Assembly: GCA_017469525.1 (NCBI GenBank)
Contig: JAFUGG010000018.1
Location: forward strand, 1-64,000
Source: Bacteroidaceae bacterium
GTDB lineage: Bacteria; Bacteroidota; Bacteroidia; Bacteroidales; Bacteroidaceae
Direction of reading: 5' to 3'
Length of the DNA stretch: 64,000 nucleotides
Shown here one piece after another: positions 37,849 through 44,039 of the stretch. Made by a program: the position numbers and the translations under genes. A model generated the notes under the pieces. That model was not told where the DNA came from, did not search any database, and worked only from the letters and a program-made list of their open reading frames with translations. Numbering within the stretch: the stretch's first letter is position 1; each line of letters opens with the position of its first letter.

Positions 37849-38535
37849 ATGACACAAAAGGACGATAAAAATGAAAAACAGGTAGTTTCACGTCAACGCG
37901 TAGCTGACCATGGCGAGGTATATACAGCCAAGCGCGAGGTCAATGCTATGCTCGACCTGGTGAAGGAAGAGACGGAGCGCATAGACTCCCGCTTCCTGGA
38001 ACCCGCATGCGGCACGGGGAACTTCCTTGTAGAGATTCTTAACCGTAAAATGGAAGTGGTGAAGAGGCGCTTTGCCCGCAACCGCTTCGAGTATGACCTT
38101 GCCTCGGCACAGGCCGTCAGTTCGATTTATGGCATCGAACTTCTGCCCGACAATGTGGAGAACTGCCGAGGAAGGCTTCTTGTGCAGTATCTCGACACTT
38201 ACCGTCAGCACCTTTCTGCAGATGCTTCGCCCGAGTTGGAGCGATGCATCCGTTTCCTGTTAACCAAGAACATTCTTTGTGGCGACGCCCTGACCATGCT
38301 TCAGGAGGACGGGACACCCATCACCTTCTGCGAATGGACATTTATCGGCATGGACGGCAAGGTGAAGCGGCGCGACTTTGAACTGGCTGAACTTCTTCGT
38401 AATGTGGAGTTCGACAAGCCTAAGCCCGGCGAATATGGGAACCTCTTCAGCGACTTGGACGAACCAGTCTTCATGCCTCTGCCCAAGCGCGAATACCCTT
38501 TGACTGACTACCTAAAACTACCCGACTATGAGTAA
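37849..38535 (+). CDS. DNA methyltransferase-like subunit (N6-adenine type, motif I only)
   Basis: 228 aa. GEVYTAKREVNAML followed by FLEPACGTGNFLVEIL is the N-terminal and motif I (SAM-binding) part of Eco57I-type N6-adenine methylases. IYGIELLPDNVENCRGRLL is motif II-like. No (N/D)PPY motif is present, so it is not a complete enzyme. The end (PLTDYLKLPDYE) overlaps the next gene by 8 bp. It likely acts with that larger methylase as a two-part enzyme. The leader RNA's third repeat covers its ATG. Confidence 0.78.
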   Translation: MTQKDDKNEKQVVSRQRVADHGEVYTAKREVNAMLDLVKEETERIDSRFLEPACGTGNFLVEILNRKMEVVKRRFARNRFEYDLASAQAVSSIYGIELLPDNVENCRGRLLVQYLDTYRQHLSADASPELERCIRFLLTKNILCGDALTMLQEDGTPITFCEWTFIGMDGKVKRRDFELAELLRNVEFDKPKPGEYGNLFSDLDEPVFMPLPKREYPLTDYLKLPDYE

Positions 38536-40066
38536 GTTGAACTACAACCCCGATGTGCTGTCGTGCTTGGCAAACCTGAGCAACGACGAAGTGTTCACGC
38601 CGCCCAGTCTTGCCAACCAGATGTTGGATATGTTGCCGCAGGAGCTGTTCCGTAGTACTGACACGAAGTTCCTTGACCCTTGCGCGAAGAGCGGCGTCTT
38701 TCTTCGCGAGATTGCCAAAAGACTGATTGCAGGCTTGGCAGACAAGATTCCCGATTTGCAGGAACGTATCGACCACATCATGCACCATCAGCTCTATGGC
38801 ATCGCCATCACCCGCCTGACCTCGTTGATGAGCCGCCGCAGCCTCTATTGTTCGAAGAATGCAAGCGGGAAGTACGCCCTCTCGCAATTCGGCACAGAAG
38901 ATGGCAACATCCGCTTCAAAGACATTCGCCACACTTGGCAAAATGGGAAATGCAAGTACTGCGGAGCCTCGCAAGAAGTCTATGACCGAGGCGACGACCT
39001 TGAATCCCATGCCTACGAGTTTATCCACACAGACAAAACTAATACATTATATAATAATATGACTTTCGATGTAATAATAGGCAACCCGCCGTATCAGTTG
39101 AGTGATGGAGGAAATGGTGCAAGCGCAATCCCTATTTATCATAAATTTATCACTCAGGCAATCAAACTGAAGCCAAGATATTTGACGATGATTATTCCTT
39201 CAAGGTGGATGACTGGAGGTAGAGGATTGGATGATTTTAGGAAAACTTTTCTTGCAGACAATAGGCTTTCTGTTATTCACGACTTTAAGGATGCTTCTCT
39301 TTGTTTTTCAGGTGTGGAAATAAAGGGCGGGGTTAATTATTTCCTATGGGAAAGAGATAAAGTCTCCCCTTTATGTTTAATTATAAATGATAATGGCAGT
39401 GATGAAGTGAAAGAATGTAAGCGTCCACTAATAGAAAAGGGGTGCGATGTGTTTATTAGGAACAATGACTTAATTACTATTTATAGAAAGGTTAATTCAA
39501 GAAAAGAGAGGTCATTCTCTGATATTGTTTCCTCAATGAAACCTTATGGTTTACGAGGCGACTTCTTCAAAAGTCCACAAAAATATGGGCTACCAGCGAT
39601 AAGCGAAAAACCTATCAAAGATGGATATGTAATATATGGCTTGGATGAAAAGATGAAACGAAGTCGTAGATATATTCCTATAAATTATCCTCTTCCTAAA
39701 AAGGATGACATAGAGAAGTTTAAACTTTTTATGTCACGTAATCAAGGAGAAGGTATTTTAGGTGAGACTTTTGTCCCTCCTGTTTTTGCAAAACCTAACG
39801 AACTGTGTACTGAGACATTTGTAGTAATTGGAGGCTTTGATAATGAACAGGAAATGTATAATTGTTGGTCTTACATGAAGACAAAGTTTTTCAGGACGAT
39901 GCTTGGTATGAAGAAAAACGATCAAGGTTGCGGTCAATCTGTATATCAATTCGTCCCCCTTCAAGATTTCAGCAAGCCTTGGACGGATGAAGAACTCTAT
40001 AAGAAGTACGGCTTGACAGAAGAAGAGATTCAGTTCATCGAGTCGATGATAAGGCCAATGGAATAA
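38528..40066 (+). CDS. Eco57I-type DNA methyltransferase / restriction-modification protein
   Basis: 512 aa. DEVFTPPSLANQMLDML and FLDPCAKSGVFLREIAKR give motif I; NPPYQLSDGG near residue 182 is motif IV of N6-adenine methylases. A zinc-like CKYCG precedes it. The DNA of 38528-39035 has core-like GC, whereas about 39036-39950 is strongly AT-rich and then returns to normal. The break falls just before the NPPY motif, so the catalytic/target-recognition part seems to have been replaced by recombination. It modifies DNA; the partner nuclease is probably the helicase at 40906. Confidence 0.85.
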   Translation: MSKLNYNPDVLSCLANLSNDEVFTPPSLANQMLDMLPQELFRSTDTKFLDPCAKSGVFLREIAKRLIAGLADKIPDLQERIDHIMHHQLYGIAITRLTSLMSRRSLYCSKNASGKYALSQFGTEDGNIRFKDIRHTWQNGKCKYCGASQEVYDRGDDLESHAYEFIHTDKTNTLYNNMTFDVIIGNPPYQLSDGGNGASAIPIYHKFITQAIKLKPRYLTMIIPSRWMTGGRGLDDFRKTFLADNRLSVIHDFKDASLCFSGVEIKGGVNYFLWERDKVSPLCLIINDNGSDEVKECKRPLIEKGCDVFIRNNDLITIYRKVNSRKERSFSDIVSSMKPYGLRGDFFKSPQKYGLPAISEKPIKDGYVIYGLDEKMKRSRRYIPINYPLPKKDDIEKFKLFMSRNQGEGILGETFVPPVFAKPNELCTETFVVIGGFDNEQEMYNCWSYMKTKFFRTMLGMKKNDQGCGQSVYQFVPLQDFSKPWTDEELYKKYGLTEEEIQFIESMIRPME

Positions 40067-40070
40067 AGTT

Positions 40071-40098
40071 TCCCCTAACTTCTCCTAAAGGAAGGGGA
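40071..40098. repeat. Degenerate palindromic element after the methylase
   Basis: TCCCCTAACTTCTCC, then TAAAGGAAGGGGA. It is shorter and less G/C-rich than other copies but has the same layout. Confidence 0.55.
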
Positions 40099-40154
40099 TT
40101 AAAAACAAGAGTATAACAATTTAGGCGCTCTTTGACAAGATTTTGATTGGAAAG

Positions 40155-40186
40155 TTTGGAAGTTTCGGATAACCTCGCTACCTTTG
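40155..40186 (+). promoter_or_regulatory. Promoter of the MntA-HepT pair
   Basis: TTTG at 40155-40158 and TACCTTTG at 40179-40186, 20 bp apart: a full consensus. The toxin-antitoxin pair thus has its own promoter inside the restriction island. Confidence 0.75.
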
Positions 40187-40208
40187 CACTCGGTTAAACT
40201 ATATAACG

Positions 40209-40502
40209 ATGTTGGAACTTCAAGATTGTACTCATAAACTGGTTGCTTTTAAGCAAGCTTTTGGCAAGCAGTATGGTATAACGAAACTCGGCATCTTCGG
40301 TTCTGTAGCCAGACAGGAGAATACCGAGGACAGTGATATTGACATCGTTATAGAGGTTGAAAAGCCCACACTCTCTTTGATGTATGAGCTGAAGGAGGCT
40401 TTGAAAAACCTGTTCAATTGTAATGTTGATTTAGTCAGGTTCCGTTCAACTCTTCGTCCTCTGTTTAAGTCGAACATCTTAAACGATGCTGTGTATGTAT
40501 AG
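40209..40502 (+). CDS. mntA: MntA-type minimal nucleotidyltransferase (antitoxin)
   Basis: 97 aa. GIFGSVARQENTEDSDIDIVIE is the GSxxRxxxxxxSDxD motif of minimal nucleotidyltransferases. In type VII toxin-antitoxin systems MntA adds AMP to the HepT toxin and silences it. The next gene overlaps by 8 bp and encodes the partner. Cytoplasmic. Confidence 0.9.
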   Translation: MLELQDCTHKLVAFKQAFGKQYGITKLGIFGSVARQENTEDSDIDIVIEVEKPTLSLMYELKEALKNLFNCNVDLVRFRSTLRPLFKSNILNDAVYV

Positions 40503-40866
40503 TGAGGATTTAGAAATAAGAGACAGACTGGAGGACATTCTTGAATCCATTGATCTGATTCAGGAATGGAGTAAGGGAATGACTGAATTGCATGACTTCA
40601 TGATTTCTCCAAACCGAGTGATGGCTTTCAATGCCTGTGTGATGAGACTGCAAGTGATTGGCGAGCATGTGGGCAAACTGATGAAAGAAGAAAGCAAGCC
40701 CTTGGACAAATATACGGAAATTCCCTGGCATGCTATTTATGGGTTGAGAAACATTATTTCCCATGAATATGCAAACATAGATGAGGCAATCATTATTTCA
40801 GCCATCAATGAGGATTTGCCAAAGCTAAGAACTGTAATAGAGGAACTTCTTAGACAGTACTCCTAA
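40495..40866 (+). CDS. hepT: HepT-type HEPN RNase toxin
   Basis: 123 aa from ATG 40495 (an upstream ATG at 40486 is possible). The all-helical DUF86/HEPN pattern ends with RNIISHEYANID, giving the RNase motif R-x4-H plus the Tyr that MntA modifies in related pairs (RxxxxHxY). The toxin cleaves RNA when unmodified. It lies between the methylase and the helicase, so it may guard the island against loss. Confidence 0.9.
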   Translation: MYSEDLEIRDRLEDILESIDLIQEWSKGMTELHDFMISPNRVMAFNACVMRLQVIGEHVGKLMKEESKPLDKYTEIPWHAIYGLRNIISHEYANIDEAIIISAINEDLPKLRTVIEELLRQYS

Positions 40867-40905
40867 TCATTTTCTTTAATGTGAGCGCCATAACAGAAAT
40901 GCGTT

Positions 40906-43416
40906 ATGGCAACAAACTATTTCCCAAAGAAGTCGGAGTCGGCTCCGATGATTTATGCTTACGAAGACAAGTACGACCCGAACCTGAAGGGCATCCTGAA
41001 GGTGGGTTATACCACGATTGGCGTGCAGGAACGTGTGCGCCAGCAATACAACATTGTTCGCCCAGGCGAGCCTCCCTACAGGATATTGGTAGAGGAAAGC
41101 GCGATGCGGCAGGACGGCACTTCGTTCCTCGACCACGACGTGCATCGTGCCTTGGTGAAGATGGGCTGCCAACACATTGAGGGCGAGTGGTATCGCTGCA
41201 CGCCTCAACAGGTACGGGCAGCTGTGGTAGCCGTAAGGGAACGCAAGGACATTGCCTGGCATCGCGACAAAACTTTCGGTATGCGTGGGGAGCAGAAGGC
41301 GGCGGTGGACAAGACAGCAGCCTACTTCGAGAGTTATGCCAAAGAGCAAGGTCGCACACCTCACTTCCTCTGGAACTGCAAGATGCGCTTCGGCAAGACC
41401 TTCACCACCTATCAGCTGGCAAAGCGCATGGGTTGGACACGCATTTTGGTGCTGACCTTTAAGCCCGCCGTTGCCCAGGCTTGGGAAGAAGACCTGATGA
41501 CACACGTCGATTTCGAGGGCTGGCAGTTCATCGCCCGCAGTCAGGAAGCGACGATAGACTATCAGTTCGAACATGCCGACAAAAGGCGGCCGATGGTGGT
41601 GTTCGGTTCTTTTCAGGACTTCCTCGGCAAGAACACAGCCAGCGGCGGCATGAAACTGAAGCACGAATGGGCAAGGGAGTTCAACTGGGACTGCATCGTG
41701 CTCGACGAGTATCACTATGGTGCATGGCGCGAGAATGCCAAGGAGCTGATAGGCGCAAGCGAGGACCTGGGGGGCGAGATAGAGAACCCCGACTACTTCG
41801 ACGAGGACATGATTCCCATCACCTCCAACCACTACCTTTACCTCTCGGGCACACCCTTCCGTGCCATTGCATCGGGCGAGTTTATCGAGGAGCAGATATA
41901 CAACTGGACGTACTCCGACGAACAGAGGGAAAAGGAGAAATGGGGCGACAAGCCCGACAATCCCTACGCCTCGCTGCCCAAGATGGTGCTGCTGACCTAT
42001 CAGCTGCCTGCCGAAATTACCAGAGTGGCTGAAGAAGGCGAGTTTGACGAGTTCGACTTGAACACTTTCTTCGAAGCAGTAGGGAAAGGTGATAAAGCCG
42101 TCTTCAAGCATCACGACGAGGTGCAGAAGTGGCTCGACATGTTGCGAGGTCAGTATCTGCCTACTTCCGTCAACGACCTGAAGGCAGGCAACAGAAAGCC
42201 GCCTTTGCCATTCCTGAATGGTGATCTCTATTCCAATATGAATCACACGCTTTGGTTCCTGCCAAATGTGGCTTCGTGCTTTGCCATGAAGAACCTGTTG
42301 GAGGAATTCCAGAACACGTTCTATCGCGATTATCGTGTGATTGTCTGCGCCGGCACTCAGGCAGGAATAGGGCAGCAGGCTCTGCCTCCTGTGGAGAAAG
42401 CGATGGCACATCCCGACCCTTTACATTGTAAAACCATTACTCTGACTTGTGGTAAGCTGACGACAGGTGTAACGGTTCGTCCTTGGACTGGTATCTTCAT
42501 GCTTCGCGACACCTCGTCGCCAGAGACTTACTTCCAGTCGGCTTTCCGCGTCCAGTCACCTTGGACAATTACCAACAGCGACGGACTTCATCCCAATCAG
42601 GTGGAGATACTGAAGAAAGTGTGTTACGTCTTTGACTTCGCTCCCAACAGAGCTTTGCGAAAGGTCTCGGAATATTCCTGTCAACTGAACGTAGAGGAAG
42701 GCAACCCGGAGAAGTGTGTGGACGACTTCATCAAGTTCCTGCCTGTGCTCTGCTACGAGAACGGCGTGATGAAACAACTCTCGGCCAGTGACGTTCTAGA
42801 CATGGCGATGAACAACACTTCGGCTACCCTGTTGGCTCGAAGATGGGAAAGTGCTTTGCTCGTGAATGTCGATAACTTCACGCTCCAACGGCTGATGAAT
42901 AACAAGGAGGCGATGGATGCTTTGATGAAGATAGAGGGCTTCCGCTCACTTAATCAAGATATTGAGACCATTATCAACAAATCGGATGCCATCAAGAAGA
43001 AGCGCAAAGAGCACGAAGAGGGTCTTTCAAAGAAAGAGAAGAAACAACTGTCGGACGAAGAAAAGGAAATCAAGAGCAAACGCAGGCAAATACAAGAGAA
43101 ACTGATGAAGTTTGCCACGCGCATACCTATCTTTATGTATCTGACAGACTATCGCGAGTATTCGCTTAAAGACGTAATCCTTCAGTTAGAGCCTATGTTG
43201 TTCGAGCGTGTGACAGGCTTGACAAAACAAGACTTTGCTCTTCTGGTAAGCCTGAATGTCTTCAATGAAGCTCTGATGAATGATGCTGTCTATAAGTTCA
43301 AACGCTATGAGGACAATAGCCTAAGTTATTCAGGTATTGACCGCCACGCAGGAGAACAACTTGTAGGCGGCTATAGTACAGTAATCACGCAGGAAGAATA
43401 CCAGGAGCGACAATAG
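40906..43416 (+). CDS. GIY-YIG-like nuclease fused to a superfamily 2 helicase (restriction subunit)
   Basis: 836 aa. The N-terminal 100 residues resemble a GIY-YIG fold (MIYAYED..., ILKVGYTTIGVQERVRQQY, and a Glu in EGEWYRC). A superfamily 2 motor follows: Walker A-like CKMRFGKTFTTYQLAK near residue 160, DEYH box (VLDEYHYGAW) near 267, SAT-like LSGTPFRA, and motif VI-like QSAFRVQSPW. A Lys/Glu coiled stretch precedes the end. Together with the methylases it resembles an ATP-dependent restriction enzyme. The exact type cannot be assigned from sequence alone. Confidence 0.8.
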   Translation: MATNYFPKKSESAPMIYAYEDKYDPNLKGILKVGYTTIGVQERVRQQYNIVRPGEPPYRILVEESAMRQDGTSFLDHDVHRALVKMGCQHIEGEWYRCTPQQVRAAVVAVRERKDIAWHRDKTFGMRGEQKAAVDKTAAYFESYAKEQGRTPHFLWNCKMRFGKTFTTYQLAKRMGWTRILVLTFKPAVAQAWEEDLMTHVDFEGWQFIARSQEATIDYQFEHADKRRPMVVFGSFQDFLGKNTASGGMKLKHEWAREFNWDCIVLDEYHYGAWRENAKELIGASEDLGGEIENPDYFDEDMIPITSNHYLYLSGTPFRAIASGEFIEEQIYNWTYSDEQREKEKWGDKPDNPYASLPKMVLLTYQLPAEITRVAEEGEFDEFDLNTFFEAVGKGDKAVFKHHDEVQKWLDMLRGQYLPTSVNDLKAGNRKPPLPFLNGDLYSNMNHTLWFLPNVASCFAMKNLLEEFQNTFYRDYRVIVCAGTQAGIGQQALPPVEKAMAHPDPLHCKTITLTCGKLTTGVTVRPWTGIFMLRDTSSPETYFQSAFRVQSPWTITNSDGLHPNQVEILKKVCYVFDFAPNRALRKVSEYSCQLNVEEGNPEKCVDDFIKFLPVLCYENGVMKQLSASDVLDMAMNNTSATLLARRWESALLVNVDNFTLQRLMNNKEAMDALMKIEGFRSLNQDIETIINKSDAIKKKRKEHEEGLSKKEKKQLSDEEKEIKSKRRQIQEKLMKFATRIPIFMYLTDYREYSLKDVILQLEPMLFERVTGLTKQDFALLVSLNVFNEALMNDAVYKFKRYEDNSLSYSGIDRHAGEQLVGGYSTVITQEEYQERQ

Positions 43417-43560
43417 AATCCACTCCGCCACTCAGACGGAACGATAAGCAAGGTCGTGATTACTTAAATTACATTTTTCTTCACTACAAAACAAATCTCC
43501 GCTTAGGTCTTTCTGCGGCGGGGATTGTTGTATTAGGCAAAGGTAAATAGCTAAAAGTAA

Positions 43561-43588
43561 AGAGGATGAACCCAACGGCTCATCCTCT
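43561..43588 (-). terminator. Hairpin 3' of tRNA-Leu
   Basis: On the minus strand AGAGGATGA pairs with TCATCCTCT around a 10-nt loop, 11 bp after the tRNA end, followed by TTACTTTTA. The region 43417-43560 otherwise holds only an imperfect hairpin (about 43497-43528) that may end the helicase transcript. Confidence 0.65.
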
Positions 43589-43599
43589 TCTCTCGCTCG

Positions 43600-43916
43600 T
43601 GCCCGGAACGGGAATCGAACCCGTACGGCCATCACTGGCCAAGGGATTTTCTTACTACTCTTGCTTTCACACAAGCCATCTCAGAGAGATGTTGTAGTCT
43701 GGACTATTTCTTCACCATGCCACGGGAGCGGTTTAGGTGTTGCCTATATAGTCTCTACGCCATTTATCAGCTTTGTGCTGAATTTAGTGAGCCATCGCCA
43801 CATCTGTCGTCGCCGACAGAAAGGTTTCTGTTTGTTAGGGCAATTCTACTTCATCGGTTTCCCGATGAGCACTCTTGTTTTAAGTCCCTCGTGTCTACCA
43901 ATTCCACCATCTGGGC
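43600..43916 (-). tRNA. tRNA-Leu(UAA) interrupted by a group I intron
   Basis: Exon 1 is 43882-43916 (GCCCAGATGGTGGAATTGGT... ending AGGGACTT); exon 2 is 43600-43650 (AAAATCCCTTGGCCAGTGAT...). Joined, they form a class II tRNA: anticodon stem AGGGA/TCCCT, loop CTTAAAA with anticodon UAA, a long variable arm GGCC/GGCC, T-arm ACGGG-TTCGATT-CCCGT, and acceptor GCCCAGA/TCCGGGC with discriminator A. One acceptor pair is A5-C68, a mismatch. No CCA is encoded. It reads UUA and UUG codons. Confidence 0.92.
43651..43881 (-). other. Group I self-splicing intron in the tRNA-Leu anticodon loop
   Basis: 231 nt between U34 and A35. The exon ends in U and the intron ends in G, as group I introns require. 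P1: exon ACUU with intron GAGU, giving U-G at the splice site. Hairpins: CAUCGG-GAAA-CCGAUG, CAGAAA-CC-UUUCUG, UGUCG-GCGA-CGACA, UAGG-CAACA-CCUA (P8-like) and CAUCUC-UC-UGAGAUG (P9-like). The P7 pair is GACUA with UAGUC in GAAGAAAUAGUCCAG, the group I core signature. No homing endonuclease ORF. Position and type equal those of cyanobacterial tRNA-Leu introns. Confidence 0.9.
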
Positions 43917-43949
43917 AGCCTTGCAGGTACAATTCGCTAATTGCGGGTG

Positions 43950-43957
43950 CAAAGGTA
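43950..43957 (-). promoter_or_regulatory. -7 promoter box of tRNA-Leu
   Basis: TACCTTTG on the minus strand, 33 bp before G1. Upstream is a short (GTGAAAA)n run at 43967-43990. Confidence 0.6.
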
Positions 43958-44039
43958 AGAAAAAAAGTGAAAAGTGAAAAGTGAAAAGTAAAAAATTATT
44001 CTTTATTCACTAATCTCTAATCTTTAATCTGCGATATTA

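Follow-up and report, generated by a model that had tools for sequence, protein, structure and literature searches.

The chromosome of a gut Bacteroidales bacterium carries a tRNA-Leu(UAA) gene interrupted in its anticodon loop, which raises the questions of whether the insert is a group I intron and by what route it entered a gene that the host should need. The gene lies in a stretch of 64,000 nucleotides (hereafter the window; positions 1 to 64,000 of contig JAFUGG010000018.1, assembly GCA_017469525.1), and the host chromosome is Prevotellaceae-like. A plain ARAGORN run without introns missed the gene. With introns allowed, the program reported a split tRNA at c[43599,43916] and gave it the anticodon AAA, a mislabel that arose because the cut was set at positions 37-38. 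The splice sites given in Table 1 come from a join test that required a U before the cut, a 7-nt anticodon loop and a cut at the G ending the core model.

Table 1 Features of the split tRNA-Leu(UAA) gene and its flanks in the window
Feature	Position	Strand	Evidence
Split tRNA-Leu(UAA) gene, exons and intron	43600..43916	-	ARAGORN with introns allowed; joined exons
5' exon, 35 nt, 3' end ...AGGGACUU (U34)	43882..43916	-	Equal to intact genes of G180 and G110
Group I intron, 231 nt, ORF-less, last base omega-G at 43651	43651..43881	-	Phage-only model R2; covariation
3' exon, 51 nt, begins AAAAUCCCU (AAAA), CCA not encoded	43600..43650	-	Join test; intact congeners
Presumed Bacteroidales-type -7 promoter box TACCTTTG (TAnnTTTG), about 33 nt upstream of tRNA	43950..43957	-	Sequence
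Terminator-like hairpin AAGAGGATGA...TCATCCTCTT downstream of tRNA, T-rich 3' side	43560..43589	-	Local fold
P1, exon ACUU (43885-43882) / guide GAGU (43874-43871), 4 bp, U.G at 5' splice site	43871..43885	-	Local fold
P2 hairpin, UCAUCGG-GAAA-CCGAUGA	43851..43868	-	Local fold; paired changes in L041 (CAG/CUG) and L042 (GGG/CCC)
P3 5' strand, partner 43744-43740	43839..43843	-	Compensatory changes in 4/5 pairs
P3 3' strand, pseudoknotted with P7	43740..43744	-	Covariation
P4 (43830-43829 / 43794-43793; 43824-43823 / 43799-43798)	43793..43830	-	A-U/G-C/C-G covariation in one pair (1/4)
P5, GCGA loop	43803..43820	-	7/7 pairs covary
P6	43767..43781	-	5/5 pairs covary
P7 5' strand GACUAU (G-site region)	43748..43753	-	Invariant in 15 sequences; RNAalifold on phage rows alone
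P7 3' strand AUAGUC	43702..43707	-	Alignment of 15 cores
P8	43713..43739	-	Compensatory in 4/6 pairs, e.g. CACC/GGUG to UAUC/GAUA
P9 stem (ACUAC/GUAGU) around P9.1 (43691-43677) and P9.2 (43675-43660)	43654..43698	-	P9.1 4/5 and P9.2 3/4 pairs covary

Joined at these sites, the two halves form a complete class II tRNA-Leu(UAA) of 86 nt with the intron between U34 and A35, as the original prediction had it, and the joined exons are identical at 86 of 86 positions to the intact tRNA-Leu(UAA) of two congeneric genomes (G180 and G110). The intact gene of G180 follows FtsH and CdsA, as in the window (protein identity 92% and 84%), and by sequence comparison the G180 site is an empty orthologous site that fixes both splice sites. 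Upstream of the tRNA lies a TAnnTTTG box, which we take to be a -7 box of the Bacteroidales type and a candidate promoter of the gene; a similar -7-like box is also found upstream in L011, L012 and L042. The stretch with the terminator-like hairpin folds locally at -27.7 kcal/mol. A plus-strand ORF over the intron (43661-43984) was set aside as mechanical. Adjoining the tRNA, at 37849-43416, the window also encodes MmeI-like and Eco57I-like methylases, a HepT-like protein and a T5orf172/ResIII helicase-nuclease, which as a whole resemble a split type IIG restriction-modification system.

An Rfam tRNA search of the window genome, a draft of 90.48% completeness, found no second tRNA-Leu(UAA), intact copies of which the original prediction had named as evidence against itself; the tRNA-Leu genes with anticodons TAG, CAA, GAG and CAG are intact in the same genome. 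In eight genes near the split tRNA, UUA makes up 13 of the 341 Leu codons. Because no other UAA tRNA was found and UUA codons are in use, a working tRNA-Leu(UAA) should be expected to be needed by the host. Since the draft is only about 90.5% complete, an intact second copy could sit in a gap.

The general Rfam model of group I introns (RF00028, Intron_gpI), which had been proposed as a check, gave no match to the window intron at gathering or relaxed thresholds (E up to 10), whereas its cut-off was passed by a phage relative (L074) and by L081 and L085, introns of other Bacteroidota that we call IC3-like, a label taken from motifs and general knowledge with no subtype model behind it. One general model is expected to capture subtypes poorly, and subtype models have been used instead (Nawrocki et al. 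2018, PMC6125680). The miss apparently reflects a model that does not cover the subtype of the window intron, and it was not taken as disproof because the covariation described below is strong. As RF00028 was silent, relatives were gathered in order to test group I identity.

Fifteen intron cores were aligned with MAFFT without structure and scored on the group I structure including its pseudoknot, whereby 98.0% of cells were paired and both sides had changed in 28 of 47 pairs. The covariation score was 0.503 against 0.157 in shuffles, none of the 500 shuffles reached it, and sliding the structure by 1-3 columns left only 31-46% paired. R2, a model whose only input was ten phage introns and for which RNAalifold supplied the structure, matches the window intron at 43651-43850 with 192 bits (E 2.8e-51). 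This match and the full identity of the joined exons to intact genes go far beyond what chance would give. At the level of sequence comparison, covariation and the phage-only model thus confirm the insert as a group I intron with a P3/P7 pseudoknotted core in a tRNA-Leu(UAA) gene of a Bacteroidales chromosome. The motifs on which the original prediction had relied are likewise present: the insert ends in G and the 5' exon in U34, P1 forms in the local fold with a U.G pair at the splice site, the predicted P7 strands GACUA/UAGUC are part of the invariant GACUAU/AUAGUC, and the GNRA loops cap P2 and P5. Of the relatives in which a splice site was located, all keep the splice-site U.G pair and the omega-G apart from L066, whose intron has A as its last base. 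The helices P7.1 and P7.2 of subgroup IA are absent between P7 and P3, because only 3 nt separate the P7 5' strand from the P3 3' strand.

The same covariation bears on whether the insert might be a decayed element that no longer splices, leaving a tRNA pseudogene with UUA read by another tRNA. The window intron has no HNH gene and the acceptor stem has one A.C mismatch (A5.C68), as might be expected of a decaying locus, but this mismatch is present in the intact congeneric genes too, the core helices are all intact and obey covariation, a promoter-like box and a terminator are kept, and no other UAA-anticodon tRNA was found. We therefore regard decay as very unlikely.

The close relatives of the window intron come from metagenome assemblies. 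A second genome with the insert (G073, 84% identity) was found among 201 of the family, and in 84,980 species genomes a 21-base core pattern occurs at four loci, each in a Prevotellaceae or Bacteroidaceae assembly. In phage records the window intron is matched by the crAss-like phage cr115_1 (80% over 150 nt) and by Lak megaphages. A second core pattern matched 20 viral contigs, of which L060 and L070 proved to be chance matches in other sequence; the pattern GTAGAGACTATATAGGCAACA found nothing in the viral contigs, and the plasmid collection gave weak partial matches only (74-77% over about 70 nt).

These matches also allow the proposal to be weighed that the intron is an artefact of a chimeric assembly or of phage contamination of the genome bin. 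The draft consists of 76 contigs and many of the relatives are indeed in phages, yet the intron is located inside a 117-kb contig beside FtsH and CdsA, where G180 has its intact gene, and close relatives occupy the same gene in four other Bacteroidales assemblies, so that such an artefact is hardly credible.

According to the join test, the cut lies after U34 in the Leu(UAA) genes of the window, L039, L041 and L042 and of phages L058, L059, L063, L064 and L111, in Lys(UUU) of phages L065, L067 and L115, and in Ile(UAU) of L069, Arg(UCU) of L076 and Leu(UAG) of L112. In the CUA amber-suppressor tRNAs of cr115_1 (L045), Lak-B1 (L046), L066, L075 and L077 the cut is at U35|A36, and the CUA suppressor tRNA of L061, judged by eye, is split alike. 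The intron of cr115_1 was considered as an insertion in the terminase gene, which was rejected since it sits in the suppressor-tRNA gene upstream of the terminase. Members of the window's clade are also present in Lak-B1, B2 and C1. The tRNA-Leu(UAA) of Lak-B2 (L047:2541-3063) and Lak-C1 (L048:2549-3062) is split twice by group I introns, in the D-loop and again in the anticodon loop. Phage contig L065 (1562-9837) contains an array of more than 20 tRNAs, several of which were called at 120-177 nt and are possibly further split tRNAs. In the 26 nt around the insertion the window equals Lak-B2 and Lak-C1 at 26 of 26 positions and phages L058 and L111 at 25 of 26; with target flanks this equal, one endonuclease could serve phage and host.

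Five or six phage contigs have introns of the clade in CUA suppressor tRNAs, among them cr115_1 and Lak-B1, whose group reportedly recodes UAG (PMC8346664). This might point to a regulatory role, in which splicing would gate the supply of tRNA-Leu(UAA) or of the phage amber-suppressor tRNA and the intron would not be a neutral parasite. Such a role is very unlikely: a conserved target and the requirement for a U.G pair offer a simple explanation of the insertion site, and most relatives are intronless.

Introns at U34|A35 of tRNA-Leu(UAA) in cyanobacteria and plastids are small ORF-less ribozymes. To place the window intron, a tree was made of 32 introns over 194 columns; the rows are short, and much of the inner branching within the phage and bacterial members is poorly resolved. 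Twelve phage and five Bacteroidales introns form one clade (support 99/99), in which the window intron is sister to L042 (98/97; 96% identical). The IC3-like introns of other Bacteroidota, which include tRNA-Leu(UAA) introns at the same U34|A35 site (L081, L083, L085, L087 and L097), form a clade of their own (100/99). Forcing all bacterial tRNA-Leu introns into one clade was rejected (p_AU 1.2e-40), while the five Bacteroidales introns as one clade were not rejected (p_AU 0.32). The tree of tRNA-Leu introns for which the original prediction had called thus nests the window intron with phage tRNA introns. The tie to cyanobacteria and plastids that it had drawn holds for the gene and the site, but the implied kinship is not supported. 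Because the tree separates IC3-like and phage-type clades, two ribozyme lineages are found, by sequence, at the same tRNA-Leu site in Bacteroidota, and that of the window is the phage type.

It follows that the intron is most improbably an ancient IC3 tRNA-Leu(UAA) intron of the cyanobacterial and plastid type, inherited by or transferred into Bacteroidales and working in the same way. Such an origin would account for the shared gene and site, and IC3-like introns do exist in other Bacteroidota, one of them (L082) encoding an HNH protein that shares 54% identity with the phage-type family. Against it stand the rejected joint clade, the position of the window intron below the Rfam cut-off that L081 and L085 exceed, and a core identity of about 53-61% to IC3-like introns versus 68-96% within its own clade. 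The rejection of a common clade places the window intron outside the IC3-like lineage as represented in the tree by introns of Bacteroidota alone.

The phage-type lineage differs within itself in its coding capacity. On its own strand the window intron has no ORF and hence encodes no homing endonuclease. Introns L039, L041, L042 and L044, from three other congeners and one neighbouring genus, have an HNH ORF (that of L044 is cut by the end of the stretch), whose protein of 162-166 aa is encoded in the P1 loop, 7 nt long in the window, and runs into P2-P3. The HNH proteins of L039, L041 and L042 match phrog_10822 with E 1e-47 to 1e-50 and the Pfam HNH models weakly; in the PDB no sequence relative was found. 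Some phage members carry HNH as well, and the protein of L058, in the same place, is 61% identical. In L082, an IC3-like tRNA-Leu(UAA) intron, the HNH ORF begins at base 968 of the reverse complement (minus strand). This protein suggests an exchange of endonucleases between ribozyme lineages at one site, and the HNH endonuclease seems to be carried by both lineages, the protein tree being poorly resolved.

The two sister introns read CTT-AAACG...ORF...CG-AAACAAGAG in L042 and CTT-AAAACAAGAG in the window. The ORF of L042 is flanked on both sides by AAAC, and the window resembles a deletion between these repeats, give or take one A. The window copy therefore appears to have lost its HNH gene, which is the simpler reading because HNH is present in L042, to which the window intron is 96% identical, and in all the remaining bacterial members; the gene could also be a gain in L042.

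Spread was counted with model R1. The intron was found in 4 of 139 genomes of the genus, 3 of 399 of the family, 3 of 295 of the order (two of the three being distant types) and 25 of 395 of the phylum, where the matches apart from the window are distant (E 1e-14 to 1e-4) and sit in tRNA-Leu(UAA), initiator tRNA, tRNA-Arg(UCU) and tRNA-Lys(UUU). Patchy presence with identical empty sites in G180 and G110 is the pattern by which mobile introns are recognized. Horizontal gain, offered at first as one option, is better supported by the 4 of 139 congeners, the empty sites and the finding that the closest non-bacterial relatives are in gut phages.

We consider it very probable that the window carries a small group I ribozyme of a phage and Bacteroidales clade that moved by transfer and has since lost its HNH gene. 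Splicing, homing, the direction of transfer and HNH loss over original absence are steps that we infer as follows. The transcribed intron would fold so that the guide GAGU pairs with the exon end ACUU, with a U.G pair at the splice site. Attack on the 5' splice site by a guanosine bound at P7 would be followed by attack of the exon end after the omega-G, joining the exons into an intact tRNA. The HNH endonuclease probably cuts intronless tRNA genes at the insertion site, upon which the intron would be copied across (homing). Transfer between phage and host, from one tRNA-Leu gene to another with the same target sequence, is the most likely history. The subsequent loss of HNH from the window copy would have left a splicing-only, immobile descendant of a homing intron.

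In a wider proposal, to which we give about even chances, a homing group I clade that has become a specialist of tRNA anticodon loops passes back and forth between gut phages and the Bacteroidales that they infect. It would occupy phage Leu(UAA), Lys and amber-suppressor tRNAs as well as the host's only tRNA-Leu(UAA), so that UUA decoding in the host and recoded UAG in the phage would both need the same kind of ribozyme, with HNH carried by two ribozyme lineages at one site.

We found no published report of gut Bacteroidales in which a tRNA that looks essential is split by a group I intron; more broadly, a literature search that left subscription papers largely aside found no group I introns in Bacteroidetes tRNA. 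The clade is missed by the general Rfam model and by ordinary tRNA scans, so that a tRNA split in this way would be recorded as absent. The window intron is tied to phage tRNA introns published as enigmatic. It also provides a system in which the movement of a ribozyme between the tRNA genes of phages and hosts can be tested, among them genes for the tRNAs by which phages alter the genetic code.

Those enigmatic introns are the Lak megaphage tRNA introns of Devoto et al. 2019 (PMC6784885), whose main text gives no class for them and which probably include members of the window's clade. An intron in tRNA-Tyr(GTA) of a baboon Lak phage, also on the paper's list, was not found again here, the Lak-B1 gene being read as CUA. 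Lak-B2 and C1 share with the window an intron at the identical tRNA-Leu site, and the Lak introns examined here fall in the group I clade, but the window copy lies in the chromosome of a bacterium. In a 2014 review (PMC3984707), protein genes are the only known location of phage introns. The cyanobacterial and plastid tRNA-Leu(UAA) intron (PMC3984707) shares gene, U34|A35 site and small ORF-less form with the window intron, which belongs to a different ribozyme lineage as judged by the tree and the AU test, in both of which IC3-like introns of Bacteroidota were the comparison. Group I-like inserts in tRNA-Leu(UAA) and tRNA-Arg(UCU) of Thiomargarita and Beggiatoa (PMC4853749) likewise occur in bacteria outside cyanobacteria; they are gammaproteobacterial, of a type that the paper did not determine, and are likened to the window intron by description. 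In crAss-like and Jug phages (PMC7886860, PMC12363816), which like phages of the window's clade belong to gut Bacteroidales, group I introns and HNH homing endonucleases are likewise reported, but the introns described there lie in protein genes whereas those of the clade lie in tRNA anticodon loops. The HNH proteins of the bacterial sister introns match the phrog_10822 family, and the window copy appears no longer to encode one.
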